DNA of 64,000 bases from an uncultured Bacteroidota bacterium (GTDB lineage Bacteria > Bacteroidota > Bacteroidia > AKYH767-A > JABDAW01): assembly GCA_903844645.1 (NCBI GenBank), contig CAIMUP010000014.1:31760-95759 (forward strand). Direction: 5' to 3'. Numbering within the stretch: the first letter of the stretch is position 1; the number at the start of each line of letters is the position of its first letter. The position numbers and the translations under genes are program-made. Below the pieces are notes generated by a model. The model saw only the letters and a program-made list of their open reading frames with translations. It was not told the origin of the DNA and ran no database searches. This document shows, piece by piece, positions 3,435-64,000 of this stretch.

Positions 3435-4000
3435 GGTCATTTCGACTCCGTTATTCGTCATTCAAATCCGAAGAAACATCATTCCAAATAAAAGAAACAT
3501 CATTCCAAGAAAACTACTCGTCATTCCAAGAAAAAGATTCGTCATTCTTCTTAAATCATTCGTCATTTCAAGTTTTTTATTCGTCATTCCGATCTAACAC
3601 TTCGTCATTTCGATGCAACACTTCGTCTTTAAAAGTAAACACTTCGTCTTTTCGATGAAACACTTCGTCTTTTCATCAAAAGACCGTGGTGTTTTATCAA
3701 AAGACCGAGGTGTTTCATCAAAAGAGCGAGGTGTTTTACCCAAAAGACCGTGGTGTTTCATCAAAACACCGAGGTGTTTCATCGAAAGACCGTGGTGTTT
3801 CATTAAAAAGGCGTGGTGTTTCATTGAAAAGACGAAGTGTTTCATCGAAATGACGAAGTGTTTTGTTTTGATGACGATGTGTTTCTTGTAAATGACTTGA
3901 TAATGCGTATAATAGACGAGTATCGGTTTTGGAATGACGTCTCAAATTCCCAAAATCACGCCTCAAATTCCCAAAATAATGACTGATTTCAGGAAAAAAA
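3435..4000. repeat. Array 1: about 27 degenerate 21-bp units, two inverted arms
   Basis: This fills the divergent gap between the M15 gene (minus) and the TMTC-like gene (plus). The 21-bp phase holds from about 3435 to 4000, with degenerate outer units and more regular inner ones. Left-arm units carry CACTTCGTC and right-arm units carry its complement GACGAAGTG. For example 3598-3615 is the reverse complement of 3843-3860, so the array folds about a centre near 3729. Central units carry GACCGTGGTG and the dyad AAACACCGAGGTGTTT. Frames stay open on both strands because 21 is a multiple of three, but no ribosome site or protein-like composition supports coding. Confidence 0.9.
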
Positions 4001-4103
4001 GAGGTAGCCAACCAAAAAAGAGAAGCCTTTTGGAGGATAAAATAAGTAGGCAACAAAAATTGACACGACCTAATCCCGCCGAAACGATGAGTTCGCTTTT
4101 TCC

Positions 4104-4111
4104 TACTTTTG
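4104..4111 (+). promoter_or_regulatory. -7 promoter element TACTTTTG
   Basis: This matches TAnnTTTG and lies 33 bases before the ATG at 4145, beyond the right end of array 1. Likely promoter of the TMTC-like gene. Confidence 0.5.
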
Positions 4112-4144
4112 CTCCTCGAAATTCCAACAATATTTTGATAATTA

Positions 4145-6145
4145 ATGGCAAATAAACGGACAAATCCTACCATAAATAACACCAAAAAACCCTTTGTTTT
4201 AAGGGATGAAAATCACCTTAAAATTTCTTTGGGAATCATCATTTCCGTATTCGCATTTATACTCTACGCTCAAAGTGTTTTTTTCGATTATACAATAGAT
4301 GATGTCTATGTTTTAAAAGGAAATACGCTGACAAAAGAAGGCATCAAAAGTATTCCGCAAATCCTTAAAACAGATTATTTATTCGGCTTCAAAGATATTG
4401 AAAGAGGACCCATTTATCGCCCCGCATCCATGATAATGTTTGCCATAGAATGGAATTTCTTTCCCGATAATCCGCACGTTTATCATTTAATAAATGTATT
4501 ACTTTTCGCCCTCACCGGATTCCTTTTGTATCTCTTGCTTTGTTACTTATTTAAAAATCAAAACGTCTTCTTTCCCTTTGTTTGCAGCCTTTTGTACGTC
4601 GCCCATCCCATCCATACCGAAGTAATTAATAACATAAAAAGCCGAGATGAAATACTATGTTTTCTTTTTGGGATATTAGCGATTACAATGTTTGTTAAAT
4701 ACATTTCAACGCCATCATTACGCTATATAATAACGGGTAGTATCAGTTTTTTTATCAGCATGCTTTCCAAAGAAACGGGTGTTACATTTTTAATCATAAT
4801 ACCTTTAACAATTTATGTCTTTTCTGATGTCTCATTAAGGAAATTTCTTATCGTTTCATTCGTATTAATAACGGTATCAGGGATCTACTTTTTAATAAGA
4901 TTACACGTCCTGAAAAATGTAGGAACGAACACCACGATACCCTATTTATACAACTCTGTATTAGCCGCTCCGACCCTTATAAGTCGCCAGTTTACGGTGT
5001 TTTATATCCTCTTAAAATATTTACAATTGTTAATCCTTCCCTATTCTCTCACATGCGATTATAATTACTCCATGATCGCCGTACAAACATTCAAAGACTT
5101 GCCTGCATTAGTCGGCATCTTGATAAATTTATCCATAGGAATCTACGCATTAATAACCCTTCGGAAGAAAAGTATTATTGCCTACGGAATTTTGTTTTAT
5201 TTTATAACTTTATCACCCGTATCAAATATGTTTATTGATAACGGAGCCACCTTGGCAGAACGGTTTCTGTACACACCATCACTTGGCTTTTGTATTTTAT
5301 TAACCTATCTTATTTTTCGATTTACAAAGACAGAAATAATGCAAAACAAACTCCAAAAATTAGTTCCGAATCGTACATTATATACCGTTGTAGTGATTGT
5401 TATTGGACTCTATTCAATTAAAACAGTTGCACGCAGTATGGATTGGAAAGATAGTTACACCATCTTTAGTCATGATGCCGAAACATCGGCTAACAGTGCC
5501 ACTATTCATTACCTTTTGGGCTATGAAATATTCGCTAATATCTACCCAAAAGAAAAGGATAAAAGCGAAAAAATCAAACTACTCGATAAAGCTATTATTG
5601 AACTCACAAAAGCAACAACAATTTATGCTAAATATAAAGATGCTTATCTTTGTTTGGCATATTGTTATGAAAAAAAGGAAGCCTATCCAGATGCTTTAAA
5701 AAACTACGAAACAGCAGCACGAATAAGCGATTCAAAAGATGCTATTTTATTATGCGATATAGGGGGATTATACTCTAAATTAGGGCAGTTTGATAAGGCA
5801 TTGCTGTTCTTGGATTCGGCATTGCTCTATAAGCCGAACTCTTCTGATATTCACAATAACAAAGGCAGCGTTCTATCAAGTTTACAACGATATGACTCGG
5901 CAATAATAGAGTTTGATAAGGCGATTGAATTAGACGAAAAGAACGCACAAGCCCTAAAAAATTTAGGTAGTACTTATGCTAATTTAAAACAATATACCAA
6001 GGCATTAAATGCTTATAAAAAGTCAATGGAATATGACACTACTATTTTTGAAAGCTACTATTTTACCGGAATGATTTACCAAATCTTAGGAGACACTGCA
6101 ACGGCAAAATCTTTCCTTGAGAAAGCACAATCTTTACGGAACTAA
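4145..6145 (+). CDS. TMTC-like membrane glycosyltransferase with C-terminal TPR repeats
   Basis: 666 residues. After a short cytoplasmic start come about 10 membrane segments (residues ~30-430) and then TPR repeats (residues ~440-660, for example the YDSAIIEFDKAIELDEKNAQ unit). The first periplasmic loop holds FDYTIDDVYVLKGN and the next HPIHTEVINNIKSRDE. These resemble the Asp-Asp and HP.HTE..x.R.E motifs of TMTC proteins, GT-C O-mannosyltransferases that use a lipid-linked mannose donor. It is a close paralogue of the gene at 10638. A GT2 gene of DPM1 type follows and could supply the donor. The GT-C fold is confident; the protein acceptor and sugar are inferred. Confidence 0.82.
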   Translation: MANKRTNPTINNTKKPFVLRDENHLKISLGIIISVFAFILYAQSVFFDYTIDDVYVLKGNTLTKEGIKSIPQILKTDYLFGFKDIERGPIYRPASMIMFAIEWNFFPDNPHVYHLINVLLFALTGFLLYLLLCYLFKNQNVFFPFVCSLLYVAHPIHTEVINNIKSRDEILCFLFGILAITMFVKYISTPSLRYIITGSISFFISMLSKETGVTFLIIIPLTIYVFSDVSLRKFLIVSFVLITVSGIYFLIRLHVLKNVGTNTTIPYLYNSVLAAPTLISRQFTVFYILLKYLQLLILPYSLTCDYNYSMIAVQTFKDLPALVGILINLSIGIYALITLRKKSIIAYGILFYFITLSPVSNMFIDNGATLAERFLYTPSLGFCILLTYLIFRFTKTEIMQNKLQKLVPNRTLYTVVVIVIGLYSIKTVARSMDWKDSYTIFSHDAETSANSATIHYLLGYEIFANIYPKEKDKSEKIKLLDKAIIELTKATTIYAKYKDAYLCLAYCYEKKEAYPDALKNYETAARISDSKDAILLCDIGGLYSKLGQFDKALLFLDSALLYKPNSSDIHNNKGSVLSSLQRYDSAIIEFDKAIELDEKNAQALKNLGSTYANLKQYTKALNAYKKSMEYDTTIFESYYFTGMIYQILGDTATAKSFLEKAQSLRN

Positions 6146-6223
6146 ATTGATAGAATTCATTTAGTAATTCCTAACTGTAATCAATTGTTTTTTGGTGGTG
6201 ATAGTTTGTTCATTTCTTTTAAT

Positions 6224-6231
6224 TAATTTTG
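6224..6231 (+). promoter_or_regulatory. -7 promoter element TAATTTTG
   Basis: This matches TAnnTTTG, 78 bases before the ATG at 6309. The GT2 gene probably has its own promoter here. Confidence 0.5.
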
Positions 6232-6308
6232 CTCCTTAAATAACATCGAATCTTAGATAACAAATGATGAACAAAATAACACAAAATTTAAACTCTAATA
6301 ATTTATAA

Positions 6309-7247
6309 ATGATAAACAAAAAATTGATAAGTATCGTAACGCCTTGCTACAATGAGGAGGAAAATATTCAACTGATTTATATGAAAGTAAAGGCGATTTT
6401 TGACGAGTTGGAAATTTATAATTACGAACATATTTTTATAGATAACGATTCACAAGATAAGACCGTCGAACTGCTAAAGGAATTTGCGGCGAAAGATAAA
6501 AATGTAAAAATAATAGTGAATGCCCGGAATTTTGGACACCTTCGTTCTCCCTATCATGCCTTGCTGCAATCGAGCGGAGAAGCAACCATTCTTATCGTTG
6601 CCGATATGCAAGATCCTCCTGAATTAATTAAAGATTTTTTAGTGAAATGGGAGGAAGGTTTTAAGATTGTTATCGGTGTGAAGAATGAAAGTAAAGAGTC
6701 GCCGATGATGTTCAGGATTCGTAAAATGTATTATAATATTATCAATAAACTTTCTGAAACCGAATTAATAAAAAACTATACCGGCTTTGGGTTGTATGAT
6801 AAAATGATCATTGATATTTTAAAAAAAATAGACGATCCTTATCCCTATTTTCGTGGTTTGATTTGTGATATAGGTTTTGAAATTTCCATCATACCATATA
6901 TCCAGCCGGTGCGATATAGAGGCATCACGAAGAATAACTTTTATACACTTTATGATGTAGCAATTCTGGGCATCACGAACCATTCTAAGATACCTTTACG
7001 ACTGGCAACGATGATTGGTTTTCTAATGGCGATTCTTAGCTTTTTAGCTGCCATTGTTTACTTCATTTTTAAATTAATTTTTTGGTATCAGTTTACAATT
7101 GGACTTGCACCTTTGATTATCGGTTTATTCTTTTTTTCATCTATACAATTATTCTTCATCGGCATCATTGGTGAATACATTGGTTCCATTCAAACGCAAG
7201 TATTAAAGCGTCCGCTTGTTATAGAAAAGGAAAGAATAAATTTCTAA
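6309..7247 (+). CDS. Glycosyltransferase family 2, DPM1/GtrB-like polyprenyl-phosphate sugar transferase
   Basis: 312 residues. The N-terminal GT-A domain shows ISIVTPCYNEEENI, the IDNDSQDKT nucleotide-binding stretch and the ADMQDPPEL acidic motif. Two membrane helices follow near residues 230-295, the layout of GtrB/DPM1-type enzymes that put a hexose on undecaprenyl phosphate at the inner face of the membrane. It sits between a TMTC-like gene and a convergent GT-C gene, with 8 bp to the latter. A role as donor synthase for those GT-C enzymes is inferred from context. Confidence 0.9.
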   Translation: MINKKLISIVTPCYNEEENIQLIYMKVKAIFDELEIYNYEHIFIDNDSQDKTVELLKEFAAKDKNVKIIVNARNFGHLRSPYHALLQSSGEATILIVADMQDPPELIKDFLVKWEEGFKIVIGVKNESKESPMMFRIRKMYYNIINKLSETELIKNYTGFGLYDKMIIDILKKIDDPYPYFRGLICDIGFEISIIPYIQPVRYRGITKNNFYTLYDVAILGITNHSKIPLRLATMIGFLMAILSFLAAIVYFIFKLIFWYQFTIGLAPLIIGLFFFSSIQLFFIGIIGEYIGSIQTQVLKRPLVIEKERINF

Positions 7248-7255
7248 TTATTGGA

Positions 7256-8746
7256 TTATTTACCCAACTCTTTTTGATTAATTGCCCAGTTAAGATTATT
7301 CTTTAATAGTTGCAAGTTTGGGTTGATTTCAACAGCCTTCTTTCCTGCTTCAATAGCATGATCCCAGTCTTTCATTTGATTATAAGAACTACAAATATTA
7401 TTATATGCTTCTGCACAATCCGGCTTAATAATAATTGCATTTTGAGCCTCTTTAATGCAATCAAAATACCATCCTTTATTATAATAATATAGGCTCATTC
7501 TTAAATAAGATTCTTCTAAAGGCAGTTCTCCTACACCAAAGAAAACCCTTTCAGCGACTAATAAATTAAAAGAGGTAGGGTCATAAATGTCGTATCTTAT
7601 AAAATAGTTGTAGTATGATTTAACATTGGTATAAAGTATCAGAAACATCAATGTAATCGCAATCGTTTTTCTAATTCTAATCTTCGCATTTATTGTTTCA
7701 TAAAGATGAATGATCAGTAGCCCTGCACATATCCTGAATATCATATCCACTGGTATTGCCCAGCGAACATTCTTTGGTAGAAAGGAGTAGAGCATGATAA
7801 AATAAATACTAAACAGCAGCAATAAATTCAAGGGTTCATCTTTTCTTTCGGTGCCAATGAAATAATAACCGACATACAGCATGCAGAATATAGATACGAA
7901 TGGCGAAAGCAAAAAGAGGTCTATAAATATCTGATACCACGGTCCTGAATGATACCGCACGACATAAGGCGGGGGCGTTGCCAGGCTTAATTTATTAATG
8001 ATTCTTGCTATCTCTAACGCATTGTGGAGGCTGCCAAGTACGAGCATATATGCTGTTATACATACAACGAGCGGACCAATAATCATTGCTCCCATAGAAA
8101 AAATATTAATGTCTTTTTTGTAATAAAATTTATGTACCAATAACATCAATCCGAAGAAGGGCAGTAACAATATTGCATTCTCTTTTATTAAAATACTGAA
8201 AGCAAAAACGAGGATAAACTGGATACAACTTTTCATCTTATTCCTTCGTAAAAAATCTATGAATGTAAACAAGGAAAGAGATAGAAAAAGAAATAATGCA
8301 GGGTCGGATAATGCTCGCTTTGATAAAGCCCAACTCAAAGGTGATGCACATATCAGAATGCCCACTATTACTGCAACCTTAATACCCCAATGCCGCCTTA
8401 AAAAGAAGAAACTGGCGAGCACTTGCAGTATAAAAAATAGTACATTCAGCATGGATAGGGCATGAAAAGAATAAGAAATTTTTAATGCTAACGAAGCCAA
8501 AAAAAGATACCCAATTCTTGCCGGAGAGGGATACACTTGCAAGTCCGGCTTCTCGATATATTCCTTTGCAAGCGTTTCAAAGCCGCGCAAGCCTTGCTCA
8601 TTTATCTTTGTTGCCTGCCTGTAATAACCGCCTTCATCGGCTGTTGTTTGATATTCGTTCTCTTTCGGAAACGAAATAATGATGCATATTGAGGATAGCA
8701 ATAGCACTGCTAAAAACACTAAAGTCAAGGTTAGTTCTTTCTTCAT
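7256..8746 (-). CDS. GT-C (GT39/PMT-like) membrane glycosyltransferase with C-terminal TPR
   Basis: 496 residues. A first membrane helix is followed by a long loop with TADEGGYYRQA, an acidic motif in the place where GT-C transferases bind the lipid donor. About ten further membrane segments reach residue ~400, and two or three TPR repeats end the protein (PDCAEAYNNICSSYNQ, HAIEAGKKAVEINPN). The same architecture, GT-C plus TPR tail, is seen in the two TMTC-like proteins on either side although this sequence is distinct. It converges with the GT2 gene. Substrate unknown. Confidence 0.8.
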   Translation of the reverse strand: MKKELTLTLVFLAVLLLSSICIIISFPKENEYQTTADEGGYYRQATKINEQGLRGFETLAKEYIEKPDLQVYPSPARIGYLFLASLALKISYSFHALSMLNVLFFILQVLASFFFLRRHWGIKVAVIVGILICASPLSWALSKRALSDPALFLFLSLSLFTFIDFLRRNKMKSCIQFILVFAFSILIKENAILLLPFFGLMLLVHKFYYKKDINIFSMGAMIIGPLVVCITAYMLVLGSLHNALEIARIINKLSLATPPPYVVRYHSGPWYQIFIDLFLLSPFVSIFCMLYVGYYFIGTERKDEPLNLLLLFSIYFIMLYSFLPKNVRWAIPVDMIFRICAGLLIIHLYETINAKIRIRKTIAITLMFLILYTNVKSYYNYFIRYDIYDPTSFNLLVAERVFFGVGELPLEESYLRMSLYYYNKGWYFDCIKEAQNAIIIKPDCAEAYNNICSSYNQMKDWDHAIEAGKKAVEINPNLQLLKNNLNWAINQKELGK

Positions 8747-8824
8747 AAACGTAAATTATTTTTAATGAAATTTGTGAATATTGCTGTCTTGTTTAATCCT
8801 GCAAAACAACAAAATTTTTCTTAA

Positions 8825-9787
8825 TTAAAGATGATGAATCACGAAGGTTATGTTCCCTGAAACCTTGCCGCTTTTGTTTAAACACATAACATATTTATAT
8901 CGCAAATCGCCTAATAATTCAGCATCAATATTTGCCGTATCCCCGCCTTTTATAAGGTACCAAACGATGTCATTCGTCTTTGCATCTCTCGCCAAGCCTA
9001 CCCAAAGATCTACTTTTTTATTATTCGTTATCGTTACTTTTTCTCCTCGTTTAAAACGATGATTACACAGTTTCATTTTGGTTTTTGCTTTCACCACTTT
9101 CGTATAAATTTTCTGTTTTGCAGCTTTATAAATTAGCTCCATCGGAAGAAATGCCAACGCCAGTTTTGAGTTCTTAATAAAAATCATCAAAAGCCCAAGA
9201 TACACATACCATATAGCTTCAGAAGACTCCTCAACAATCTTTTTTACGTTTGCCGAATTCGTCTTTACATTCATAACTTTATCCGTTTGAGTATTGCTAT
9301 TTCCGGTAAATACATCCACCCTTTCCTGCACCATTGCCTTGACAGCAGCCAATGCCAGATCATTGCCAATGCCCAAAATCAATGTTTTCAAACGCCCCAG
9401 TTTACTGAATCTCGGTCCTTTATAAAAATCCTTTGTACCACCAATAAACAACCGCATGAATTCTTCAGAATCCACCTCATAAACATTCTCGGTCAGGCGC
9501 ATCCATTTTCGCAAATGTGGTTGCAATCCTTTTATCGTTATATTAGTCTGTTTTGTATGTGCCCGTCGTTCGAGCAAATCGCCACTTTGCCGCAAAACTT
9601 CTTCTTGCAAAGCATCGTCGTAAGGGACAAAATAATCGTGCAAATCTTCTATTCTTTCATCATCCCCCTTCTTCGCTTCCAGCGTAGCTCTTAAAAATGC
9701 TGAAATCGTTCCTGCAATTTCTATACTTGCTCGCATAGCTCTCTTAAAGGGATTTAAGCCTAATCGTGAACCTTTCTTTGCTGACAT
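8825..9787 (-). CDS. Hypothetical protein with one or two central hydrophobic segments
   Basis: 320 residues; I do not recognise a family. The N-terminus is basic (SAKKGSRLGLNPFKRAMRASIEIAG) with no signal peptide. A hydrophobic stretch near residues 190-220 (WYVYLGLLMIFI, then LALAFLPMELIY) could be a membrane or buried segment. A Lys-rich piece follows (KVVKAKTKMKLCNHRFKRGEK), and the end is beta-rich. The amino-acid balance is that of a real protein. It is the last minus-strand gene before the array-2 gap, 78 bp upstream of the GT-C gene on the same strand, and could be co-transcribed with it. Confidence 0.65.
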   Translation of the reverse strand: MSAKKGSRLGLNPFKRAMRASIEIAGTISAFLRATLEAKKGDDERIEDLHDYFVPYDDALQEEVLRQSGDLLERRAHTKQTNITIKGLQPHLRKWMRLTENVYEVDSEEFMRLFIGGTKDFYKGPRFSKLGRLKTLILGIGNDLALAAVKAMVQERVDVFTGNSNTQTDKVMNVKTNSANVKKIVEESSEAIWYVYLGLLMIFIKNSKLALAFLPMELIYKAAKQKIYTKVVKAKTKMKLCNHRFKRGEKVTITNNKKVDLWVGLARDAKTNDIVWYLIKGGDTANIDAELLGDLRYKYVMCLNKSGKVSGNITFVIHHL

Positions 9788-10129: not shown

Positions 10130-10361
10130 TTAATATCATTAATGAAGTATGGCTTAAACTTTAGTATGCAATCAACTTCATTAATGAAGTTCAATAAAAA
10201 CTCTGGTTTTCTTCCAACTTCATTAATGAAGTTCATTAAAAACTCGAGTTTTTATCATACTTCATTAATGAAGTCCATAAAAAACCAGAGTTTTCTTCGT
10301 ATTTCATTAATGAAGTTGATTGCATACTAAAGTTTAAGCCATACTTCATTAATGATATTAA
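10130..10361. repeat. Array 2: six 16-bp palindromes exactly 42 bp apart inside a 232-bp palindrome
   Basis: The palindrome ACTTCATTAATGAAGT, or a near copy, occurs at 10133, 10175, 10217, 10259, 10301 and 10343, each 42 bp from the last, with 26-bp spacers between. The spacers pair with each other across the centre at 10245/10246, the middle of AACTCGAGTT. The outer 59 bases on each side are perfect reverse complements. AAAACTCTGGTTTT on the left pairs with AAAACCAGAGTTTT on the right. It lies in a divergent gap, so it could form one large cruciform or RNA hairpin. Confidence 0.97.
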
Positions 10362-10599
10362 ACCAAAACTAAACTTTCGTCAAATTAGCCATTTTGCAAA
10401 TTCCTGAAAACAAGATTTTCGATGGAATAAGAGGAGAGGGAATTGATACGAATAAAAGTTTTTATCAGATAGCGGGAATGGGTATTTTAGGGGATTAAAT
10501 TTTCGATATTGAAGCCGAAATGGATACCTTTGGAAACAAGATTTTCAACCTGTTTGCAGTTAATAAATGGCGTTAAAAATTTGATATTATACGGAATCC

Positions 10600-15022: not shown

Positions 15023-15253
15023 TCCATGCGACTTATCCTTTTATCCATGGCAACTAAGAGATTTACCATGGCAACTAAGACATTAACCATGGCAACTATC
15101 AGTTTGTCCATGGACAAATTGATAGTTGCTATGGACAAACCGATAGTTGCCATGGACAAACTGATAGTTGCCATGGCAAAAAGGATAGTTGCCATGGCAA
15201 AAAAGATAGTTGCCATGGGTAAAAGGAGTTTCTCCATGGGTAAAAGGTGATTA
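15023..15253. repeat. Array 3: 11 units of 21 bp, CCATGG core, arms inverted at 15110
   Basis: Units start at 15023 and repeat every 21 bases. Most contain CCATGG. To the left of 15110 the units read CCATGGCAACTA, and to the right TAGTTGCCATGG, so the array turns over at the CCATGG at 15108-15113. The outer parts also pair: CCTTTTATCCATGG on the left against CCATGGGTAAAAGG on the right. The flanking genes are both on the plus strand. Open frames occur on both strands and are artefacts. Confidence 0.95.
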
Positions 15254-19002: not shown

Positions 19003-19310
19003 AGACGATTGCCCCAAGAGGCAGCACCCTTTCTGCCACTTCTTTTCATAGTTATAGCAATACTCATCCTCCTTTTATTGTTGCTCCCAAGAGGTCGCAA
19101 TCATAAAAAAGAGGAAAGAAAAACTGGCTGGAGCAAAATTAAGAGGTATATTTTAATAAGATTTTCCCAGTTTTTTCTTATCAAATACGCTTTGAAGGAG
19201 ACTTAGATTCTTTTGTCAATTTTGTCCAATATGAGTTTTTGAGTCTCAAAAATGCAGTTTTACGTTGAGAATGCCCAAAAACTTTTCTTTTTTTTTCGTC
19301 AACTCTTCAG
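19003..19310. other. Non-coding left flank of array 4 with a hairpin
   Basis: 308 bases between the aminopeptidase and array 4. Apart from the hairpin at 19068-19114 nothing convincing was seen. Small open frames here (for example around 19009-19206) are hydrophobic and basic, lack a start signal and overlap the hairpin. Confidence 0.4.
19068..19114 (+). repeat. Stem-loop of the CCTTTTATTG family, copy 1
   Basis: Left arm CCTCCTTTTATTGTTGC pairs with right arm GCAATCATAAAAAAGAGG. Two other hairpins with the same outer stem (CCTTTTATTG / ATCATAAAAGG) and a different inner stem lie at 41829-41877 and 42761-42802. This copy follows the aminopeptidase gene and may act as its terminator. Confidence 0.6.
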
Positions 19311-19562
19311 ACATGGAGTTCATGTCATCATACATGAAGTTCATGTACGATTACATGAACTTCAAAGTCGAGTACATGAAACTCATGTACAATTACATGA
19401 ATCGCAAAGTCGAGTACATGAATTTCAAAGTCGAGTACATGAGTTGCAAAGTTGATTACATGAGTTGCAAAGTTGATTACATGAATCGCAAAGTTGATTA
19501 CATGAATCGCATGTACGATTACATGAGATGCAAAGCTGATGACATGAATTGCAAAGATGACA
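19311..19562. repeat. Array 4: 12 units of 21 bp, ACATGA core
   Basis: Twelve units start with ACATGA at exactly 21-base steps from 19311. The other half of each unit is either CAAAGTCGAGT-like or CATGTACGATT-like. Some units hold the dyad ACATGAAGTTCATGT. The flanking genes are both on the plus strand. Two plus-strand frames are open through the array (one translating to a YMNxKVxYMN repeat), but the same is true of the other arrays on both strands, so coding is not supported. Confidence 0.95.
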
Positions 19563-25645: not shown

Positions 25646-25685
25646 ATTTCCACCCCATTCCCCATTTTTTCCACCATCTAAAGAA

Positions 25686-25874
25686 CTATTTGAGGCTTAT
25701 AGAATACTATTTGCGTCTCATAGAATACTATTTACGTCTCATAGAATACTATTTATGACTCATAGAATACTATTTGCGTCTCATAGAATACTATTTGCGG
25801 CTTATAGAATACTATTTGCGGCTTATAGAATACTATTTGCGGCTTATAGAGTGGTCTATATGGCTCATGGAATA
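25686..25874. repeat. Array 5: 9 units of 21 bp, ATAGAATACTATTT core
   Basis: Nine units start at 25686 with CTATTT and repeat every 21 bases. The junction of neighbouring units gives the dyad AATACTATT. The variable half reads GCGTCTCAT, ACGTCTCAT or GCGGCTTAT. It fills a convergent gap between the barrel gene and recO. Both strands are open in several frames. Confidence 0.95.
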
Positions 25875-25990
25875 TTACAGATGGGTTGAATATCAACGTA
25901 TTAACCAAAATTAATACCCTCCCCACCCCTCTTCCCATTGTTCGCGGTGCATTAAAGGGAAAAAAGGCTGGGAATAAAAGGGTCAGGGAA

Positions 25991-27999: not shown

Positions 28000-28230
28000 C
28001 CATGGCGTGGGGGGCACTTTCCACGGAGTGGGGGGCACTTTCCACGGCGTGGGGGGCACTTTCCATGGAGTTAGCGGCACTTTCCATGGAGTTAGCGGCA
28101 CTTTTCATGGAGTTAGCGGCACTTTTCACCGAGTGAGCGGCACTTCTCACGGAGTTAGCGGCACATCTCACCGAGTCAGCGGCACATCTCACGGAGTGGG
28201 AGGCACATCTCACGGAGCCAGCGGCGATTC
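28000..28230. repeat. Array 6: 11 units of 21 bp, GGCACTTTCCACGG core
   Basis: Eleven units start at 28000 and repeat every 21 bases. The array changes smoothly from GTGGGGGGCACTTT units on the left to GTTAGCGGCACTTT and GAGTxxGCGGCACATC units on the right. The ends are inverted: ATCGCC just left of the array against GGCGAT in the last unit. It lies in a convergent gap between the GT4 and heme A synthase genes, 25 bases from the latter's stop codon. Confidence 0.95.
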
Positions 28231-28255
28231 CAAAAAGCCCTCCAATCTGAATCAT

Positions 28256-30472: not shown

Positions 30473-30706
30473 AGTATATAGTTTTTATAAGGCGCAAAGA
30501 AATAAAATTAAGCGGGAATCATTCACCCTTTTCTGGTATTTTATGTTAAATAATCTCCAAAATACCGATTTCCATGTTGCATTCAATGTTATTCACCATT
30601 AATAAATGCACGAAAATTCATTAACCCATTCCTTACCCCCGCTACCTTTATTTAATGCCTGAAAAGGGGGTATTTATGTCATTTTCTATCGTAAAATCAA
30701 AATCCC

Positions 30707-30874
30707 AACTGTCAGTTGGGGATGTCGAACTGACAGTTGGGGATGTCGAACTGACAGTTGGGGATGTCGAACTGACAGTTGGGGATGTCGAACTGACAGT
30801 TGGGGATGTCAAACTGACAGTTCGGGATGATGAACTGACAGTTCGGGATGGGGAAATGACAGATGGAGACGGGG
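30707..30874. repeat. Array 7: 8 units of 21 bp, AACTGACAGTT core
   Basis: Units start at 30707 and repeat every 21 bases. Each has the 11-bp dyad AACTGACAGTT followed by GGGGATGTCG; the last three units drift. The first unit forms ATCCCAACTG / CAGTTGGGGAT, so the left edge is itself a hairpin. The gap is divergent between the C1 peptidase gene and gyrB. Confidence 0.96.
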
Positions 30875-30954
30875 AAATCGGGGTTGTTTTGATTAAATAA
30901 AGGGGTGGGCAAAAAAGTTATTAACAATGGGGCATTCATGTCATTAATTTTTTG

Positions 30955-33053: not shown

Positions 33054-33201
33054 ATTTTAAAATAGCCCCAATAGTTTTATTAACCTCGGAACCTGCCCAT
33101 TTATAAAAGAGAGTCGCAGCCCGAATTCCCCGAAATTTCAGGTTTTACCTTTGAAAACTGCCATTTTAAACCTAAAAATCTTCACCGGAGCAATTAATCT
33201 G

Positions 33202-33327
33202 ACCACAATAGCTACTGGCATGTCCACAATAGCTGCTGGTATGACCACAATAGCTGCTGGTATGTCCACAATAGCTGCTGGTATGACCACAATAGCTGCT
33301 GGCATGACCAGAATAGCTATTGAATCC
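33202..33327. repeat. Array 8: 6 units of 21 bp, CCACAATAGCTGCTGG core
   Basis: Six units start at 33202 and repeat every 21 bases, alternating between endings ATGA and ATGT for most of the array, which gives a weak 42-bp order. It lies between the gyrB terminator and the next plus-strand gene. Confidence 0.95.
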
Positions 33328-37053: not shown

Positions 37054-37363
37054 ATTCCCTCCCGCCCATTCCTATTTTTAATAAAATGAAGCAATGCTGT
37101 TGCCTTGGCTTGCGCTTTGGTATTTAATTAAATAAGAATCCCGTATTTCGGAATCCTTACCCCTATTTAATAAAATAATATCCTCCCCTCCCTTTCTGCC
37201 GATTTCATCAAAACCTGCGATTTCTCTGAAAACAGCAAGAATTTAGGAAAAAAATTACCTCCTTCAAATCGTTCCAAAATAGGTCTAAATTCCAAATAAC
37301 GCCACTTTTGCGAAATCCGGCAAGATTTTCCATAAAAAACAAGTGCTTTTCATGTTCAGGAAG
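37054..37363. other. Non-coding gap between nuoH and array 9
   Basis: 310 AT-rich bases. No promoter, RNA gene or strong hairpin was recognised, and nuoI or another nuo gene is not present here. Confidence 0.4.
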
Positions 37364-37592
37364 TTCGACAACGCAGTAAATAACATTATTTAGACCGTTC
37401 CCTAATTCGGCAACGCAGTAAATAACATTGTTTAGACCGTTCCCTAATTCGGCAACGCAGTAAATAACATTGTTTAGACCGTTCCCTAATTCGACAACGG
37501 GGTAAATAACATTAATTAGACCGATCCCTAATTCGGCAACGCAGTAAATAACATTATTTAGACCCATCCCTAAGTCGGCAACGCTATAAACC
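37364..37592. repeat. Array 9: 5.5 units of 42 bp
   Basis: The unit is 42 bp, twice 21, starting at 37364 and ending in a partial sixth copy. Half of the unit carries TTCGGCAACGCAGTAAATAA, the other TTTAGACCGTTCCCTAA. The dyad TAAATAACATTATTTA links the halves. Copies differ at only a few bases. Both flanking genes are on the plus strand. The minus strand is open across the array in one frame (a VAELGNGLNNVIYC-like repeat) and is judged non-coding. Confidence 0.95.
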
Positions 37593-37651
37593 ACTTATTT
37601 TATATTCTTCCCCAAAATGATACCTATATAATAGGAGTGAATTCCCACGCC

Positions 37652-41785: not shown

Positions 41786-41828
41786 CGAATTACATCGGCG
41801 TAATGAGGATACTATTCACATTCATCAT

Positions 41829-41877
41829 CATCCTTTTATTGCAGCACCGCCAGAGCGGATGCTATCATAAAAGGATG
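41829..41877. repeat. Stem-loop of the CCTTTTATTG family, copy 2
   Basis: CATCCTTTTATTGCAGCA pairs with TGCTATCATAAAAGGATG; CCGC and GCGG continue the stem inside. It lies 17 bases after the stop of the minus-strand gene at 41894 and is probably its terminator or an mRNA 3' end structure. Confidence 0.65.
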
Positions 41878-41893
41878 AATGAAAAACTATCAA

Positions 41894-42538: not shown

Positions 42539-42727
42539 CGAGGAGTTTTGCCAGTAACTCGAGGAGTTTTCCTAGGAGTCCGAGGAGTTTTGCCAGTAAC
42601 CCGAAGAGTTTTCCTAGGAGTTCGAGGAGTTTTGCCAGTAACCCGAAGAGTTTTCCTAGGAGTTCGAGGAGTTTTGCCAGTAACTCGAGGAGTTTTCCTA
42701 GGAGTTGGATGAGTTTTGCCAGCAACC
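42539..42727. repeat. Array 10: 9 units of 21 bp in strict A-B alternation
   Basis: Units begin at 42539 and step by 21 bases. All begin with CGAGGAGTTTT or CGAAGAGTTTT. Odd units continue GCCAGTAAC; even units continue CCTAGGAGT with the palindrome CCTAGG. The higher-order repeat is therefore 42 bp. It lies between two minus-strand genes. Open frames exist on both strands and encode simple repeats rich in Arg/Pro or Leu/Lys; they are not credible genes. Confidence 0.95.
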
Positions 42728-42760
42728 CAGCTTTTAGGGATTTGTAATCCCGTCCCTATT

Positions 42761-42802
42761 CCTTTTATGATACCGACCTTTTTGGGTCGGTGCAATAAAA
42801 GG
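42761..42802. repeat. Stem-loop of the CCTTTTATTG family, copy 3
   Basis: CCTTTTATGATACCGACC pairs with GGTCGGTGCAATAAAAGG around a T-rich loop (as read on plus). It lies 20 bases after the cdaA stop on the minus strand and probably acts as a terminator or 3' end structure. Confidence 0.65.
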
Positions 42803-42822
42803 ATGATGGGGATGATGGGGAA

Positions 42823-45852: not shown

Positions 45853-46083
45853 AACTTGGATTTTCATCGTTGGAACTTGGATTTTCATCGTTGGAACTTG
45901 GATTTTCATCGTCGGGACTTGGATTATCATCGTCGGGACTTGGATTTTTAGCGTCGGGACTTGGATTATCATCGTCGGGACTTGGATTATCATCGTCGGG
46001 ACTTGGATTTTTAGCGTCGGGACTTGGATTATCATCGTCGGGACTTGGATTTTTAGCGTCGGGACTTGGATTATCAGCGTCGG
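45853..46083. repeat. Array 11: 11 units of 21 bp, ACTTGGATT core
   Basis: Eleven units begin at 45853 and step by 21 bases. All begin with GACTTGGATT or AACTTGGATT; the second half is TTCATCGTTGG, ATCATCGTCGG or TTTAGCGTCGG, with the last two often alternating. The gap is convergent. Minus-strand frames here read as Pro/Asp/Asn or Val/Pro/Thr repeats and are taken as artefacts, although the D-P-S-P-D pattern superficially resembles a cell-wall linker. Confidence 0.94.
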
Positions 46084-46137
46084 GATTTGGGTTTGGGGGA
46101 CTATTGGGTTCCACTGCGCGAGGGATGGTAGGGGTTT

Positions 46138-46181
46138 GTACCTGCCTTTTGGTGGGGACTTTTCGTGGGGGAGGCAGGTAC
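46138..46181. repeat. Hairpin with conserved loop, copy 1
   Basis: GTACCTGCC pairs with GGCAGGTAC. The loop contains TTGGTGGGGACTTTTCGTGGG. It is followed 24 bases later by copy 2, whose stem differs but whose loop is nearly the same. Confidence 0.75.
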
Positions 46182-46205
46182 GGCACCCCCGAACAGCCCG
46201 ACCGT

Positions 46206-46242
46206 AGCTGCCTGTTGGTGGGGACTTTGGTGGGAGGCAGCT
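46206..46242. repeat. Hairpin with conserved loop, copy 2
   Basis: AGCTGCC pairs with GGCAGCT around TGTTGGTGGGGACTTTGGTGG. Stem bases differ from copy 1 while pairing is kept (compensatory change), and the loop is conserved. Confidence 0.75.
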
Positions 46243-46284
46243 GGGGACGCGCCATAAGAGGGTTTAAAGTTTAAGGTGGGGGTG

Positions 46285-49707: not shown

Positions 49708-49917
49708 CGGTATTCCTTGCATGGGAATGCGTTCAGACACTTGTCCGAGCCTTATCCCGTGCATCGGAATGCGTTCAGACACCTGTCCGAGCCTTATCCC
49801 GTGCATCGGAATTCGTTCAGACACTTGTCCGAGCCTTATCCCGTGCAAAGGAATACGTTCAGATACTTGTTTTAGGGTATTCCGATGCACGGGAATGCGT
49901 CAAGACATTTATTTCAG
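49708..49917. repeat. Array 12: 5 units of 42 bp with inverted ends
   Basis: The unit is 42 bp, starting at 49708. Each contains CCTTATCCCGTGCATCGGAA and GCGTTCAGACACTTGTCCGAG-like halves. The fifth unit begins TTCCGATGCACGGGAAT, which is the reverse complement of the same segment in the others. CGGTATTCC at 49708 is matched by GGAATACCG at 49933. The gap is divergent between the giant surface protein and the GT22-like pair. The plus and minus open frames are judged non-coding. Confidence 0.94.
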
Positions 49918-57379: not shown

Positions 57380-57400
57380 GATTATTATTATTCCTTCTTA

Positions 57401-57434
57401 CCTTTCCCTCTCTCTTACTTGAGAGGGGAAAAGG
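57401..57434. repeat. REP-like hairpin, relative of 37652
   Basis: CCTTTCCCTCTC pairs, with a bulge, with GAGAGGGGAAAAGG. It lies 18 bases after the stop of the minus-strand gene at 57452. Confidence 0.5.
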
Positions 57435-57451
57435 TTGAGAAGATTTGAAAA

Positions 57452-59071: not shown

Positions 59072-59110
59072 TTTTTTATGTATTAAGATTATTAATTTAT
59101 TTATCGGGGA

Positions 59111-59118
59111 CAAAATTA
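59111..59118 (-). promoter_or_regulatory. -7 element of the 59071 gene (TAATTTTG on minus strand)
   Basis: With TTTG 19 bases upstream (59138-59141) this is a complete Bacteroidota promoter. It lies 40 bases before the ATG. Confidence 0.65.
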
Positions 59119-59233
59119 CAAATAAAAAGGATAGCAACAAATTTTATTAAACTATTTTCACCACGCACTTTATAAATCAAAAAAAAAGAAGATAGCAAAT
59201 GAAGCCACATCCCGATGGTCTGGAAATTTTAGC

Positions 59234-59525
59234 CTATATATAGGCAGTTATCCTCTTACAACTGCCAGTTATGGTCTTACAACTGCCAGTTATCCTCTTA
59301 CAACTGGCAATTGTTCTCTTACAATTGGCAATTATTCTCTTACAATTGGCAATTGTTCTCTTGCAATTGACAATTGTTCTCTTACAACTGGCAATTGTTC
59401 TCTTACAACTGGTAATTGTTCTCTTACAACTGGCAATTGTTCTCTTACAACTGGCAATTGTTCTCTTACAAGTGGCAATTGTTCTCTTACAACTGACAAT
59501 TGTTCTCTTACAACTGGCAGTTGCA
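59234..59525. repeat. Array 13: 12 full and 2 partial units of 21 bp, CAATTG core
   Basis: Units start at 59255 with CTTACAACTGGC and step by 21 bases to 59507. Most contain the palindrome CAATTG. The first and last units instead carry CAACTGSCAGTTG, so each edge forms its own dyad. It separates two minus-strand T9SS-cargo genes. All six frames are open or nearly open, a consequence of the 21-base period. Confidence 0.96.
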
Positions 59526-59755
59526 CGGGGCACATTGAACATCGTCTTTATTTCTTCACAAGTTGCTGAATATTAAGCTGATAAGGCACTAAAATAGGGT
59601 ATCAAAAAAGTGTTCTGGAACAAGGTGCTGACCACGGAATGGGCAAAATGGGTGTAAATAACAGGTAATTTAAGAACTCCGTTGTGCTGTGCGGATTAGT
59701 TGCAATAAACTGTTTTCACGGTGCAATAAACTAAGTCAGAAACCTAACTATTTGC

Positions 59756-62700
59756 TTACCGAATCAGGGTAATAAATCCGTGGTCGGCGTAGGGTGCTTT
59801 ATTAAAATCTATGCCGGTAAAAATATAGTAGTAGGTGCCATCGGGGCAGTCGCCACCGGTGTTATTCACCTTGCCATTCCACTGAATTTTATGGTCAATA
59901 CTCTCGAATACTTTTAAGCCCCAACGATTAAAAATAAGCAGGTGATAATCGCTGAATCCTTCTGCCAAGAGGTTGAAATAATCGTTCTTTCCATCAGCAT
60001 TTGGAGAGAACACATTTGGGGTATAAAGGTTGCATGAATCGGCGGTAATATCTAATTTAATCGTGTCGGGAGGGCTGTAACAAACCGCACTCGGATGGAA
60101 GGCGATCAGAGTAATCGTATAATTTCCGGCAATATGATAATGCGCATGCCCGGGCACTGAATCGAGGCTTTGGATGCCATTGCCAAAGTCCCAGAAATAC
60201 GCCGTTCCGTTCGTGCTGCCATTGGTAATATCAACATCCAACGGAGAGCAACCGGAGACAGGGCTGCGAATGAAATCGCTGGTAACGACAACCGGGTTTT
60301 CGACCGCTATGTAATGGATATAAACCAAGGAATCTATGTACTCACCACAAACCGTAGAGGTATCATTGGTAACAACCAAAGTAACGGTATAGAATCCGGC
60401 AGAAGTGTATTGATGATTCGGATTAAACAAGGTGCTGGTTTGGTTATCGCCAAACCTCCAGAGATACGATAAACCGCCTGCCGAATTATTGGTGAAATGA
60501 ATGGTTAATGGATTGCAACCATTCGTGGTATCGGCAACGAAATTACTCAACACCACTGGCGGCGTAACAACGGAAACAATCACACTATCCGTCCGCGAAC
60601 AACTGCCATTATTCACCACCACCCAGTAGATGCCCGGGGTATTCACCGTGATAGTCGGAGTTTGAGCACCAGTAACCCAGAGGTAGGTATTCCCCGTAGT
60701 TCCAGAGTTTAAGGTAACAGGATTCGGGGAACAAACCACGGTATCATTACCAAGATTCACGATCGGAGGAGCGATGTAATGAATATGAACCGTATCATCC
60801 GAAACACACAAGCCGAGATTCACCACCACCCAATAATTCCCTGCGGTAGTAACGGTAATAGTTTCCGTAGTTTCTCCGGTTGACCAATGATACAAGTAAC
60901 CTGTATTCCCTGCATCTATCGAAATCGTTTCGCCAACACAGAGGGTGCTGTCATGCCCTAAATTCACCACCGGCATCTGTATCACGGTAATACTTGTAGT
61001 ATCACTCCCAGAACAAGCTGCATTACTGACCACGACAGAATAAACTCCCGTAGTATTCGCAGAAATACTTTGTGTAGTAGCACCCGTACTCCAAGAGAAG
61101 GTGCTACCGGCATTGCCTGCATTCAGGGTTATTGTTTGATTAGAACAAATCGTACTGTCAGGACCGATATTCACAACAGGAGGATTAACCAGAGTAACAT
61201 TAATCGTATCCCTTCCATGACACACACTTTGGCTAACATATACCGAATACGTTCCCGCAGTATTCACGGTAATAGTTTGAGTCGTAGCACCCGTATTCCA
61301 TAAAAAGTTGAAGCCGGTATTTCCAGCATTAAGGGTAATGGTCGCGTTGCTGCAAATGGTCGTATCCGGACCTAAATTCACCGTAGGCGAAGCCACGAAA
61401 GTAACCGTTACCGTGTCATACCCCGTGCATCCACCATTATTCACCGCCACCCAATAAGTACCCGTGGTAGTAATACTGATGTTCTGTGTTGTAGCCCCCG
61501 TACTCCAAAGGTACGTATCACCAGGATTCCCCCCCCTCAAAGTATCAGGTCCAGCACCGCAAACAGAATGATCAAGACCCAAATTAACCACAGGCGGCAA
61601 AGCAAAACTTACATTGAAAGTATCGGCAATAGTAACCACCTGATTACAAACAGTAGCACCTAATACATGCACCCAATACTGCCCTTGAACAGAAACAGAA
61701 ATAGAATCGGTAGTGGCTCCCGTATTCCAAAGATAGCTGACACCCGTACTGGTAGGATGCAGAATGACAGGATTAGTACAAGAAACAATGGTCACATTCT
61801 CCGAAATACTGGATGATGATACCGTACAAATCGGGAAGGTATATGAACCGAAGAAGGATTGTCCACAGGCAAGGATTTCTCCTGGTACACTACCGTTATT
61901 CACATCATAAACATTACCCGTTGTAGCCACCGCAGCAAGATGCACCAAGTTGCCATCAAATTCAATGATGCTATCCGGTCCGCCGACATATACATTGCCG
62001 CACGAATCTGTACAAAGCCCTCCGGTAGTATAGGCAATGCCTCCGGTAATATTGACACTGCCTTGCAAGGCAAGGGTTACCTTATCCCATTTCTTCACCG
62101 TCAACCCATCATAGGTAAATAAAGAACAACCACTAACTGCTGTGCCATTAAAACCAGAGAATTCCGAACTTGTATTGCTCGCTTGCCCTTCATAAAGTAA
62201 ATATCCATCCTGAACAGAACCTGTTGTAGCATTCGATGCATCTACTTTCCAGAGTAAATTAGTGGTATCGGCTCCCGTGAAACCTGATGAAAAGGAAAGT
62301 CCAAAAGCATCCCCATTGGCATCTACCGACATACACCGAACCTCTCCATGCAAACAGGTAGGATGAAACGAATAAGGCGAATGCGCACCAGTTGCAGGAT
62401 CAACAGTGAAAACTAATGGAGCTTGAGAGGGATGTAATTCCATACCCATTACCGTTAATTTACCGGATACAGGATTCGGGAAGATACGATAGATCTCTAC
62501 CGAAGGTGCCGAGGTAATAACACTCCAAACCAATATCCCGCCAGGGTCTAATTTTAAACATAAATCGCCCCAAGGACCATACACAATATAGCAATTACCA
62601 CCGGCATCCAAAGTGAAGTCGCCATAATAACCGGCTGCACTTGTATTATACGTCCAGATAGGAGAACCAAGCGAAGTATATTTCTGAATTTGATAAGGAT

Positions 62701-63595
62701 TCGCACCTCCATAAACATAAATATTACCTGACGGATCATGCTGTATATCGAATGCGCCATCATACGTTGCAAAGTTCGGATCATGAACCCAAGGATCGAT
62801 AATTAAGGTCTTCCCATGGTCATAATCGCTTAATAAAAACGAAACCGTCTTGCCATTCACCTTAAACGTAGAGGCTACGGCAGACTTTTCATCGCCTTCG
62901 TAATAACTAATAGGTGCATTATCCACAAATAATCCTCCTTTATAATGCAATTGCAAATTGCCCGATTCATCTAAACCCACTGCCTCCACCCCGCTCCATT
63001 TTATCTTAATAACTGATGCATCCGCACCCGGATGAACAATAAAAGAATACTTTATTCCGCCTTCTTTTTGGAAAGAATACGCAACATCTATCCCAGGATA
63101 TACATTCTTTTCGGTAAGGCTCTTCCAACCATCGGCTTTCAGAGTTCCATTTTTAATGACAGCATCGGGGAATGTAAAATATTGCCCCTCTTTTTCATCG
63201 GTAATAAAGCTTGCATCCTTATTTGCATCCACAAAAGTCATCGTTTGCCGATGCTGCTCAAATTTATGCTCTTCCTCCTCTTTTCCTTCTGCTTCTTTTT
63301 TATTGATATTCTCTACAAACTGCACCGAATTTTTAGAGAATAATACAATCGTCTTGCCCATTTGCCCACCATAAGCCGGGTGGTTAGAACTCCCTTTTTC
63401 ATATCGGTCATACTGCCCCTTATTCTCAATGAATGTCGGCTGAAAAGGCTTCACTACGAAGTTTGTTTTAGTAGCATTTGCCGCCACCGGATGTGTCGTT
63501 AAGGAAGCAAGGTTTTGTTGCTGCCCGATACTGCTTTCCGAGGAAAGAAAATACACAACCAACAGGGCGAGAGCAATTCGTTTTAATGATTTCAT
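59756..63595 (-). CDS. Giant DUF7948/SBBP-like surface protein with Ig-like and PKD modules and T9SS type B domain
   Basis: 1279 residues with a signal peptide. The N-terminal domain starts FQPTFIENKGQYD, the FIENKGQ-type domain (DUF7948) found before SBBP repeats, and reads on through LIIDPWVHDPNFATYDGAFD. A propeller-like part leads to six or seven VNLGPDTTICSNATITLNAG...WNTGATTQTI modules, two PKD domains (YLWRFGDNQTSTLFNPNHQY, YFWDFGNGIQ) and a type B T9SS domain ending YADHGFITLIR. It is probably the largest adhesin in the window. Its end is nearly the same as that of the gene at 54080 at DNA level. Confidence 0.93.
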   Translation of the reverse strand: MKSLKRIALALLVVYFLSSESSIGQQQNLASLTTHPVAANATKTNFVVKPFQPTFIENKGQYDRYEKGSSNHPAYGGQMGKTIVLFSKNSVQFVENINKKEAEGKEEEEHKFEQHRQTMTFVDANKDASFITDEKEGQYFTFPDAVIKNGTLKADGWKSLTEKNVYPGIDVAYSFQKEGGIKYSFIVHPGADASVIKIKWSGVEAVGLDESGNLQLHYKGGLFVDNAPISYYEGDEKSAVASTFKVNGKTVSFLLSDYDHGKTLIIDPWVHDPNFATYDGAFDIQHDPSGNIYVYGGANPYQIQKYTSLGSPIWTYNTSAAGYYGDFTLDAGGNCYIVYGPWGDLCLKLDPGGILVWSVITSAPSVEIYRIFPNPVSGKLTVMGMELHPSQAPLVFTVDPATGAHSPYSFHPTCLHGEVRCMSVDANGDAFGLSFSSGFTGADTTNLLWKVDASNATTGSVQDGYLLYEGQASNTSSEFSGFNGTAVSGCSLFTYDGLTVKKWDKVTLALQGSVNITGGIAYTTGGLCTDSCGNVYVGGPDSIIEFDGNLVHLAAVATTGNVYDVNNGSVPGEILACGQSFFGSYTFPICTVSSSSISENVTIVSCTNPVILHPTSTGVSYLWNTGATTDSISVSVQGQYWVHVLGATVCNQVVTIADTFNVSFALPPVVNLGLDHSVCGAGPDTLRGGNPGDTYLWSTGATTQNISITTTGTYWVAVNNGGCTGYDTVTVTFVASPTVNLGPDTTICSNATITLNAGNTGFNFLWNTGATTQTITVNTAGTYSVYVSQSVCHGRDTINVTLVNPPVVNIGPDSTICSNQTITLNAGNAGSTFSWSTGATTQSISANTTGVYSVVVSNAACSGSDTTSITVIQMPVVNLGHDSTLCVGETISIDAGNTGYLYHWSTGETTETITVTTAGNYWVVVNLGLCVSDDTVHIHYIAPPIVNLGNDTVVCSPNPVTLNSGTTGNTYLWVTGAQTPTITVNTPGIYWVVVNNGSCSRTDSVIVSVVTPPVVLSNFVADTTNGCNPLTIHFTNNSAGGLSYLWRFGDNQTSTLFNPNHQYTSAGFYTVTLVVTNDTSTVCGEYIDSLVYIHYIAVENPVVVTSDFIRSPVSGCSPLDVDITNGSTNGTAYFWDFGNGIQSLDSVPGHAHYHIAGNYTITLIAFHPSAVCYSPPDTIKLDITADSCNLYTPNVFSPNADGKNDYFNLLAEGFSDYHLLIFNRWGLKVFESIDHKIQWNGKVNNTGGDCPDGTYYYIFTGIDFNKAPYADHGFITLIR

Positions 63596-63620
63596 AGTTC
63601 TTGTTTTATTAATTAGAGGA

Positions 63621-63651
63621 CAAAATTACAACTTATTTTTCAATGCCGCAA
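63621..63651 (-). promoter_or_regulatory. Complete promoter of the 59756 gene
   Basis: On the minus strand TTTG/TTG (63649-63651) is followed after 20 bases by TAATTTTG (63621-63628), about 26 bases before the ATG at 63595. Confidence 0.65.
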
Positions 63652-63819
63652 ATTTATGATAAAGATTTTTAAGATTCGGTGCTTCTTTCAGGATAATTTT
63701 ATCGGACTGTTTTCCTCAAACGCTTATTATCGAATCTATCCATCTCATCGCTGCAAATCTACCATTCCCCAGGAAACAAATAAACCTTTATCTTGACAAT
63801 TTTTATCATCTGCACAAAC

Positions 63820-64000
63820 TCCTAAGTCTTCAACATTAGCTCCTAAGTCTTCAACTCTACGTCCTAAAGCTTCAACTCTACGTCCTAAAGCTTCAACTCT
63901 ACGTCCTAAAGCTGCAACTCTACGTCCTAAAGCTGCAACTCTACGTCCTAAAGCTGCAACTCTACGTCCTAAAGCTGCAACTCTACGTCCTAAAGCTGCA
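63820..64000. repeat. Array 14: at least 8.5 units of 21 bp, cut by window end
   Basis: Units begin at 63820 with TCCTAAGTCTTCAAC and step by 21 bases, becoming TCCTAAAGCTTCAAC and then TCCTAAAGCTGCAAC. Left-end units are the most different, and the later ones are identical to the window edge. The palindrome AAGCTT is in units 3 and 4. The array continues beyond base 64000. Confidence 0.95.

Follow-up and report, generated by a model that had tools for sequence, protein, structure and literature searches.

Intergenic tandem arrays whose unit length is fixed at 21 bp, and whose sequence is not, form a real class in all three genomes that we sampled from one genus of uncultured Bacteroidota. 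We describe them from a stretch of 64,000 nucleotides of the source genome, G000 (contig C14, 31760-95759; hereafter the window), and from samples of its relatives. The arrays hold a 21-bp register, lie about one to each long gap between genes, carry an excess of two-fold-symmetric positions (dyads), have been copied between loci, consist of units that resemble each other within an array and not across most arrays, and are rare in genes. We tentatively regard them, with rather less than even confidence, as dispersed, locally homogenized and fast-changing intergenic satellites, whose pitch would likely be held by selection for the phased binding of a two-fold-symmetric protein.

Arrays were detected with Tandem Repeats Finder; we call those with a score of at least 100 strong and those whose best period is a multiple of 21 21-type. 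In the window, the program recovered all 14 arrays that an earlier, sequence-only reading of this DNA had listed with periods of 21 or 42 bp, in rows with periods of 21, 42, 63 or 84 bp and one row of 64. The 18 array clusters with multiple-of-21 rows occupy 3147 bp, or 4.92% of the window, in agreement with the roughly 5% given by that reading. Twenty random 64-kb sequences with the dinucleotide statistics of the window yielded a mean of 0.5 rows scoring at least 50 and none scoring at least 100. An additional two-copy match (62019-62063) lies inside a gene.

The same periods prevail elsewhere in the genome. G000 comprises 3.84 Mb in 143 contigs (98.7% completeness), and our 376-kb sample, made of the window and 20 further stretches, covers about a tenth of it. 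The best period is a multiple of 21 in 92 of its 122 arrays and in 77 of the 87 strong ones, which agrees with the sharp spike at 21 and 42 that the sequence-only reading had named as support for its claim. Off-by-one best periods are few among these 87 (one array each at 20, 64 and 125, two at 83), and none of them peaks at 10, 11, 31 or 32. By extrapolation, the whole genome would hold roughly 775 strong arrays. The sequence-only reading had proposed the same check in close relatives, and the spike recurs in the two other genomes of the genus, where 21-type arrays make up 29 of 34 strong arrays in G001 (208 kb) and 9 of 14 in the incomplete G002 (56 kb, picked partly for similarity to the window).

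Arrays of this kind are concentrated in one genus and thinly scattered beyond it. None of the five strong arrays of G003, from a sister genus of the same family (149 kb), is 21-type, and neither are six of the eight in 12 further genomes of the order (395 kb; 2/8 are). The stretches of G000, G001 and G003 are mostly contig starts chosen by number, with some positioned by earlier matches. Counted over periods of 10-130 bp, 21-type arrays number 20.2 per 100 kb in G000, 13.5 in G001, 16.2 in G002 and 3.6 in G027; lone ones occur in G010, G022 and G031, and samples (5-149 kb) of 19 other genomes contained none. All four strong arrays of G027 are 21-type in this range, as are 6 of 10 when the limit is lifted (two of period 147, perhaps coding). 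G003 has many 7- and 8-bp arrays, and 21 is the best period in only 1 of its 21 arrays. In G031, another Bacteroidota genome that is otherwise nearly array-free in 125 kb, a single 42-bp array with inverted 21-mers lies upstream of mfd (L011 197-398).

Within arrays, the pitch is close to exact. Among 885 unit steps in 103 directly repeating arrays, 839 measure exactly 21 bp, and multiples of 21 account for 855 in all; 11 miss by one base pair and three lie near a half-turn, with only steps of at least 9 bp scorable. These counts, like those of dyads, inverted ends and flank partners below, exclude four duplicated places and 39 arrays that had entered the set through similarity (before the duplicate places were removed, 863 of 911 steps were exactly 21). 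Degenerate units outside the arrays keep the register for three steps, with a mean match of 5.5-7.3 of 21 positions versus 4.8-4.9. With 10.5 bp to a helical turn, no whole number of base pairs below 21 completes a whole number of turns, and helical phasing is the most economical reason for this number; it is not proven.

No such constancy is seen in the letters of the unit. The pairwise likeness of 104 consensus units is near that of shuffles, with a small excess of pairs matching at 12-15 of 21 positions (496 vs 392). Seven pairs match at 17 or more positions, and two of these, at contig ends, are probably one array split by the assembly. Beyond this small excess and the seven pairs, no palindromic consensus is shared across the 104 units. 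We found no 7-bp sub-repeat (lag 7) inside the 21-bp units, and the spectrum of adenines alone shows some power at period 7 (z 4.8). Three ways of building the unit were rejected: a 3 x 7 origin, because there is no lag-7 letter signal; a half-turn (2 x 10.5) build, because there is no 10-bp sub-repeat; and a conserved core with a free spacer, because conserved columns are clustered (p<0.05) in only a minority of arrays (9 of 53, with 2.7 expected).

What the units do have in excess is two-fold symmetry. The 21-bp units contain 5.70 complementary pairs versus 5.27 (7.5 standard deviations), with a dyad that is significant singly in 13 of 103, and the 42-bp units contain 12.54 versus 10.00 (13.3 standard deviations), significant singly in 12 of 24. 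In many 42-bp arrays a 21-mer alternates with its reverse complement, which places dyad centers every 21 bp. The window arrays at 10130, 37364 and 49708 are true 42-bp arrays: the direct likeness of their 21-bp halves is low (lag-21 identity 0.20, 0.28 and 0.15), and the halves are partly reverse complements, with 0.74, 0.67 and 0.59 of dyad positions complementary versus 0.44-0.48 after column permutation. Some 21-bp arrays (3435, 15023) flip orientation a single time, at a palindrome. Inverted 21-mers occur in 22 of 77 G000 arrays, versus about 2-3% of positions in shuffles. Miniature inverted-repeat transposable elements have terminal inverted repeats and target-site duplications at fixed ends; here, 43 of 113 arrays have mutually inverted ends (above the 95th percentile for ends paired at random), and no fixed ends were found. 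Between the 37364 array and its relative on G000:C27, we counted four compensatory and three broken dyad pairs; the total of this comparison was left unused because both sequences had served to choose the dyad, and chance probably accounts for many of its 79 pairs.

The arrays are a feature of the space between genes. With gene calls from our own hexamer caller, from which frames shorter than 750 bp and more than 30% array were removed before gaps were counted, 80 of 88 merged 21-type arrays of G000 lie mostly outside the kept gene calls and 8 mostly within. Their median length is 192 bp and their median distance to a gene start 185 bp. Only three G000 gaps are doubly occupied where random placement predicts 12.7, which amounts to about one array per gap. 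Around gyrB, nuoG and nuoH the arrays differ in place among G000, G001 and G002, and in G002 and G001 the closest ones lie more than 1.2 kb from gyrB; a pre-array site is not visible at these gaps in the three species, which are too diverged past about 100 bp. Of 30 G000 contig ends examined, 14, including the window end, are no more than 60 bp away from a 21-bp array, where 2.3 would be expected, so that short-read assemblies of this lineage break at arrays and probably undercount them.

Many arrays have copies at other loci. Our search for own-genome relatives covered the 10 arrays in window positions 25500-64000 (the four before 25500 lie outside that range) and scored the best 40 of 181 and the best 40 of 294 first-look candidates, so that some relatives may be missed. 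Seven of the 10 (30707, 33202, 37364, 42539, 45853, 59234 and 63820) have relatives at 72-92% identity; the arrays at 25686 and 28000 (best 40 of 181) and 49708 (best 40 of 294) have none among the matches listed. The earlier claim that the arrays share no common motif stands inside the window and is qualified genome-wide by these relatives, and the description of the arrays as unrelated needs correction; between most arrays only the pitch is common. The homology often takes in the flanks, as for 37193-37639 with contig C27 and 45854-46257 with contig C117. Five of the 18 related pairs have an array that is less similar than its flank by at least 14 points (65/84, 73/87, 71/87, 73/90 and 70/91%), and in all five the periods of both partners remain multiples of 21. 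Two pairs with a comparable gap show the opposite, the array being closer than the flank (83/74 and 90/84%). Related arrays that share flanks, some of them more diverged than those flanks, point to arrays being copied between gaps and drifting afterwards.

None of the candidate machinery that we looked for, namely a RAYT transposase, a reverse transcriptase, an expansion of HU/IHF or a loss of MutS1, distinguishes the genus. For the Y1 (RAYT) transposase, G000, G001 and the incomplete G002 gave no full-length, stop-free match but only partial or stop-bearing ones, and G003, without arrays, gave five that are near full-length and stop-free. The reverse transcriptase family RVT_1 has no match in G000 or the incomplete G002 and one in G001. 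Loss of MutS1 was rejected as a cause, as both G000 and G001 carry a full-length mutS1. MutS2-like matches are lacking from G000, G001 and G003, and also from G006, G009, G015, G017, G019 and G030. SbcD (TIGR00619) shows nothing above the cut-off in 31 of 31 genomes of the order, versus a match in 8 of 14 control genomes; this shortfall may make palindromes tolerable, yet it does not mark this genus. The arrays are also unlike a CRISPR-type repeat with unique spacers, since the whole 21-mer repeats, and the window has no Rfam match. No Rep family appeared among the Pfam matches of 39 window frames, and no Rep or Par gene was seen beside the window arrays.

In the reading that we favor, arrays would reach new gaps by copying, and unequal exchange or slippage would homogenize their units, leaving the sequence of each array to drift freely. 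A two-fold-symmetric DNA-organizing protein would then dock on the same face of the helix at every second turn, and changes that break the register would be removed because they shift units to different helix faces. Candidate outcomes are looping, wrapping, insulation between transcription units and supercoil management. Selection on the pitch is not proven, and we lean towards it. A bolder proposal, possible but in our judgment doubtful, is that of a sequence-free chromosomal element: most long gaps between genes would have an array of their own, differently spelled, that is recognized not by its sequence but by geometry, through dyads that return to the same side of the helix after every second turn. 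Because the arrays are spelled differently, such an element could provide hundreds of equivalent sites without enough common sequence to recombine.

Several results weigh against selection for phased binding. An individually significant dyad is absent from 90 of 103 21-bp units, and within arrays dyad-breaking single changes (295) far outnumber compensatory ones (37), so that compensation is modest. In favor of selection, unrelated units share one length, and the within-array ratio of indel bases per mismatch is low, at 0.046 versus 0.18-0.23 for other arrays and 0.12 for flank families. This ratio is biased, however, because arrays with off-by-one periods (such as 20, 64 and 83) entered neither group, and it was compared with small sets (31 and 52 arrays). 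Across the 18 related pairs we saw no depletion of indels, gap openings per substitution being alike in arrays and flanks (0.077 vs 0.089), and one G002 family mixes 21- and 22-bp pitch. Occupancy of long gaps, which also speaks in its favor, appears high, with an array in 54 of 68 G000 gaps of at least 300 bp (31 of 42 co-directional, 16 of 18 divergent and 7 of 8 convergent) and in 20 of 34 in G001, but is partly circular because arrays lengthen their own gaps; a stricter count, limited to gaps that have 150 bp left over once the array is subtracted, gives 49 of 90 in G000 and 20 of 52 in G001. Against selection, again, the genus shows no expansion of HU/IHF genes, and no array-binding protein was found. 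Nor did we find the signature of selection for bending, which the sequence-only reading had suggested: by two parameter sets, the predicted bend of units and permuted controls is 22.9 vs 22.3 and 74.5 vs 64.9 degrees per 105 bp, with 51 and 65 of 120 arrays above the permuted mean. Repetition at 21 bp itself about doubles the predicted curvature in one model (22.9 vs 11.8 degrees per 105 bp in shuffled sequence), and the gain is partly lost at pitches of 20 and 22 bp (17.0 and 16.0 degrees). Since real units do not exceed permuted ones in bend, any constraint would be on phase rather than on bend.

Quite possibly, although we incline away from it, the arrays are selfish or neutral satellites, derived from one ancestral 21-bp satellite that spread with non-autonomous hairpin elements and diverged, its length inherited and without function. 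The seven window arrays with relatives elsewhere fit such a history, as do the gap rates of related arrays, which resemble those of flanks, and the stretch of 119 bp at the right end and flank of the 42539 array that is 100% identical to G000:C128 and marks recent copying. Dispersed elements are also common in array flanks: a partner exists for 121 of 263 flanks, in 104 cases at another locus, and the element at 46114-46257 has at least 27 further own-genome places among the best 40 of 294 candidates, often, not always, near a 21-bp array. Common descent accounts less readily for mutually unrelated arrays with the same period and few off-by-one variants, for a within-array indel ratio below its comparators, even by a biased measure, and for the scarcity of multiply occupied gaps. 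Birth in place, one of the two explanations offered by the sequence-only reading, would have an enzyme or replication process of the genus lay tandem copies in exact 21-bp steps, each array being new. Most arrays are indeed without a common motif, three of the 10 window arrays are without a listed relative, and arrays adjoin different genes in different species. Lag-21 runs are slightly raised in array-free gaps, too (4 versus a median of 1 in G000; 8 versus a median of 3 in G001, where 21 is the commonest short-repeat lag). We nevertheless consider this origin unlikely, for relatives at other loci often share flanks, 307 kb of coding DNA shows no excess of two-copy repeats at lag 21 (2 runs vs 4 at lag 18), RVT_1 is unmatched in G000 and the incomplete G002 (with its one match in G001), and mutS1 is intact in length in G000 and G001. 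The same lag counts led us to reject a slippage bias towards 21 across the whole genome.

The arrays might instead be elements like REP (repetitive extragenic palindromic) sequences or BIMEs (bacterial interspersed mosaic elements), mobilized by a RAYT-type (Y1) transposase. They are extragenic and often palindromic, some alternate in orientation as BIMEs do, and REP-like hairpins lie nearby; yet a genome-wide consensus is missing, and intact Y1 matches are found not in the three array-bearing genomes but in array-free G003, which makes this origin very improbable. Translation into heptapeptide repeats, 21 bp being seven codons, is scarcely credible: open frames are slightly commoner than in column-permuted arrays (2.86 vs 2.40 of 6), but there is no codon-position signal (mod-3 spread 0.103 vs 0.107 permuted) and the units are inverted in part of the arrays.

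The individual arrays of the window illustrate this range of forms. The 21-bp array at 3435-3990, of about 26 units, flips orientation near 3680, and its right half resembles the reverse complement of its left. In the 42-bp array at 10130-10382, the palindromes ACTTCATTAATGAAGT and AAAAACTCGAGTTTTT alternate with dyad centers 21 bp apart (dyad z 7.4), and the array ends are mutually inverted. The 21-bp array at 15023-15250 has a CCATGG core and flips at about 15105; its right flank, which reaches about 15412, is a member of a dispersed family that adjoins different array units in G002 and G001. A 21/63-bp array follows at 19311-19560. The 21-bp arrays at 25685-25880 and 28000-28232, the latter rich in G+C, both lie between convergent genes. 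Two more flank gyrB: one upstream, between divergent genes, at 30700-30890 (relative G000:C43, 80%), and one downstream at 33200-33325 (relatives G000:C8, C51 and C44, 79%, and G002:C18, 86%). The 42-bp array of inverted 21-mers at 37364-37590 has relatives on G000:C27 (74%, flanks included) and C129 (72%), and the 42/21-bp array at 42539-42730 has one on G000:C26 (88%). Between convergent genes, the 21-bp array at 45853-46100 is related to G000:C117 (92%), C39 (76%) and C69 (74%); between divergent genes, the 42-bp array at 49708-49910 again consists of alternating palindromes. The 21-bp array at 59234-59530 is related to G000:C21 (90%) and C137 (78%). The last, at 63800-64000, is a 21-bp array that reaches the contig end and has a relative on G000:C39 (78%); it probably continues on contig C57, whose start matches it at 96%.

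Dispersed elements of several kinds accompany the arrays. The 144-bp G+C-rich element at 46114-46257, which adjoins the 45853 array, has two long hairpins with a GCGCG/CGCGC closing stem (fold z -3.35). A REP-like hairpin of the TCATCCTTTTATTG...CAATAAAAGGATGA family lies at 41825-41887, with further copies at 42760-42809 and 19064-19125; hairpins of this family sit 7-62 bp past gene stops and have many matches in G001, G002 and G000. Array flanks also hold a dispersed CCTTTTATTG...CAATAAAAGG family. On G001:C139 (L254), the flanks of array 3927 carry a high-copy element, CGTCCCGCTATCCGCTGTAGCC...GCAGCGGGCTGCCGCTACTATCGGGG, which is 83-96% identical among array flanks. Among the proteins of the window, Pfam matches (39 frames scanned) include type IX secretion sorting domains, which are typical of Bacteroidota.

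The arrays share traits with several known systems. Plasmid iterons, which lie at replication origins with a cognate Rep gene, are direct repeats about two turns apart, and sopC-type centromeres have units of about 43 bp with inverted repeats that carry a phased protein array. Like iterons, our arrays are tandem direct repeats in helical phase, within the range of 19-22 bp; unlike either, they lie at many chromosomal loci (14 in 64 kb), differ in sequence and adjoin no Rep or Par gene that we could see. Eukaryotic satellite DNA conserves its monomer length while its sequence turns over, and the present arrays likewise keep length, turn over sequence and form higher-order repeats (42, 63, 84), but they are bacterial, about 200 bp long and about one per gap. 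From ordinary minisatellites, with their mixed unit lengths, they differ in that the period is a multiple of 21 in 77 of 87 strong arrays. As far as the consulted sections of the source describe them, REP, BIME and REPIN elements are short extragenic palindromic elements with RAYT transposases, arranged in inverted pairs and in some gaps in tandem (PMC3116915). The present arrays are similarly extragenic and often palindromic, with inverted pairs limited to 22 of 77 G000 arrays, and differ from that description in their many unit sequences without a common consensus, their near-exact 21-bp pitch and the lack of an intact Y1 match. In the sections consulted of the SPADE survey, the commonest tandem repeats between genes are heptamers (PMC6344855); our arrays resemble such bacterial minisatellites in being intergenic tandem repeats and differ from the heptamers in having 21-bp units without a 7-bp sub-repeat. 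The survey's main text contains neither '21-bp' nor '21 bp'. In uncultured lake Planctomycetota, noncoding structural variation has been tied to intergenic tandem repeats (PMC9426551); these belong to another phylum, and a fixed unit length is not reported in the consulted part of that paper. A search of the open-licence full-text literature returned no description of arrays with such a 21-bp pitch.

Dispersed repeats are normally recognized by their sequence. Here, the property that the arrays share is the length of the unit and, for the most part, not its sequence. If the pitch is indeed selected, the arrays would amount to a chromosome-wide helical-phase code in bacteria, and would offer a natural test of whether proteins organize DNA by geometry alone.

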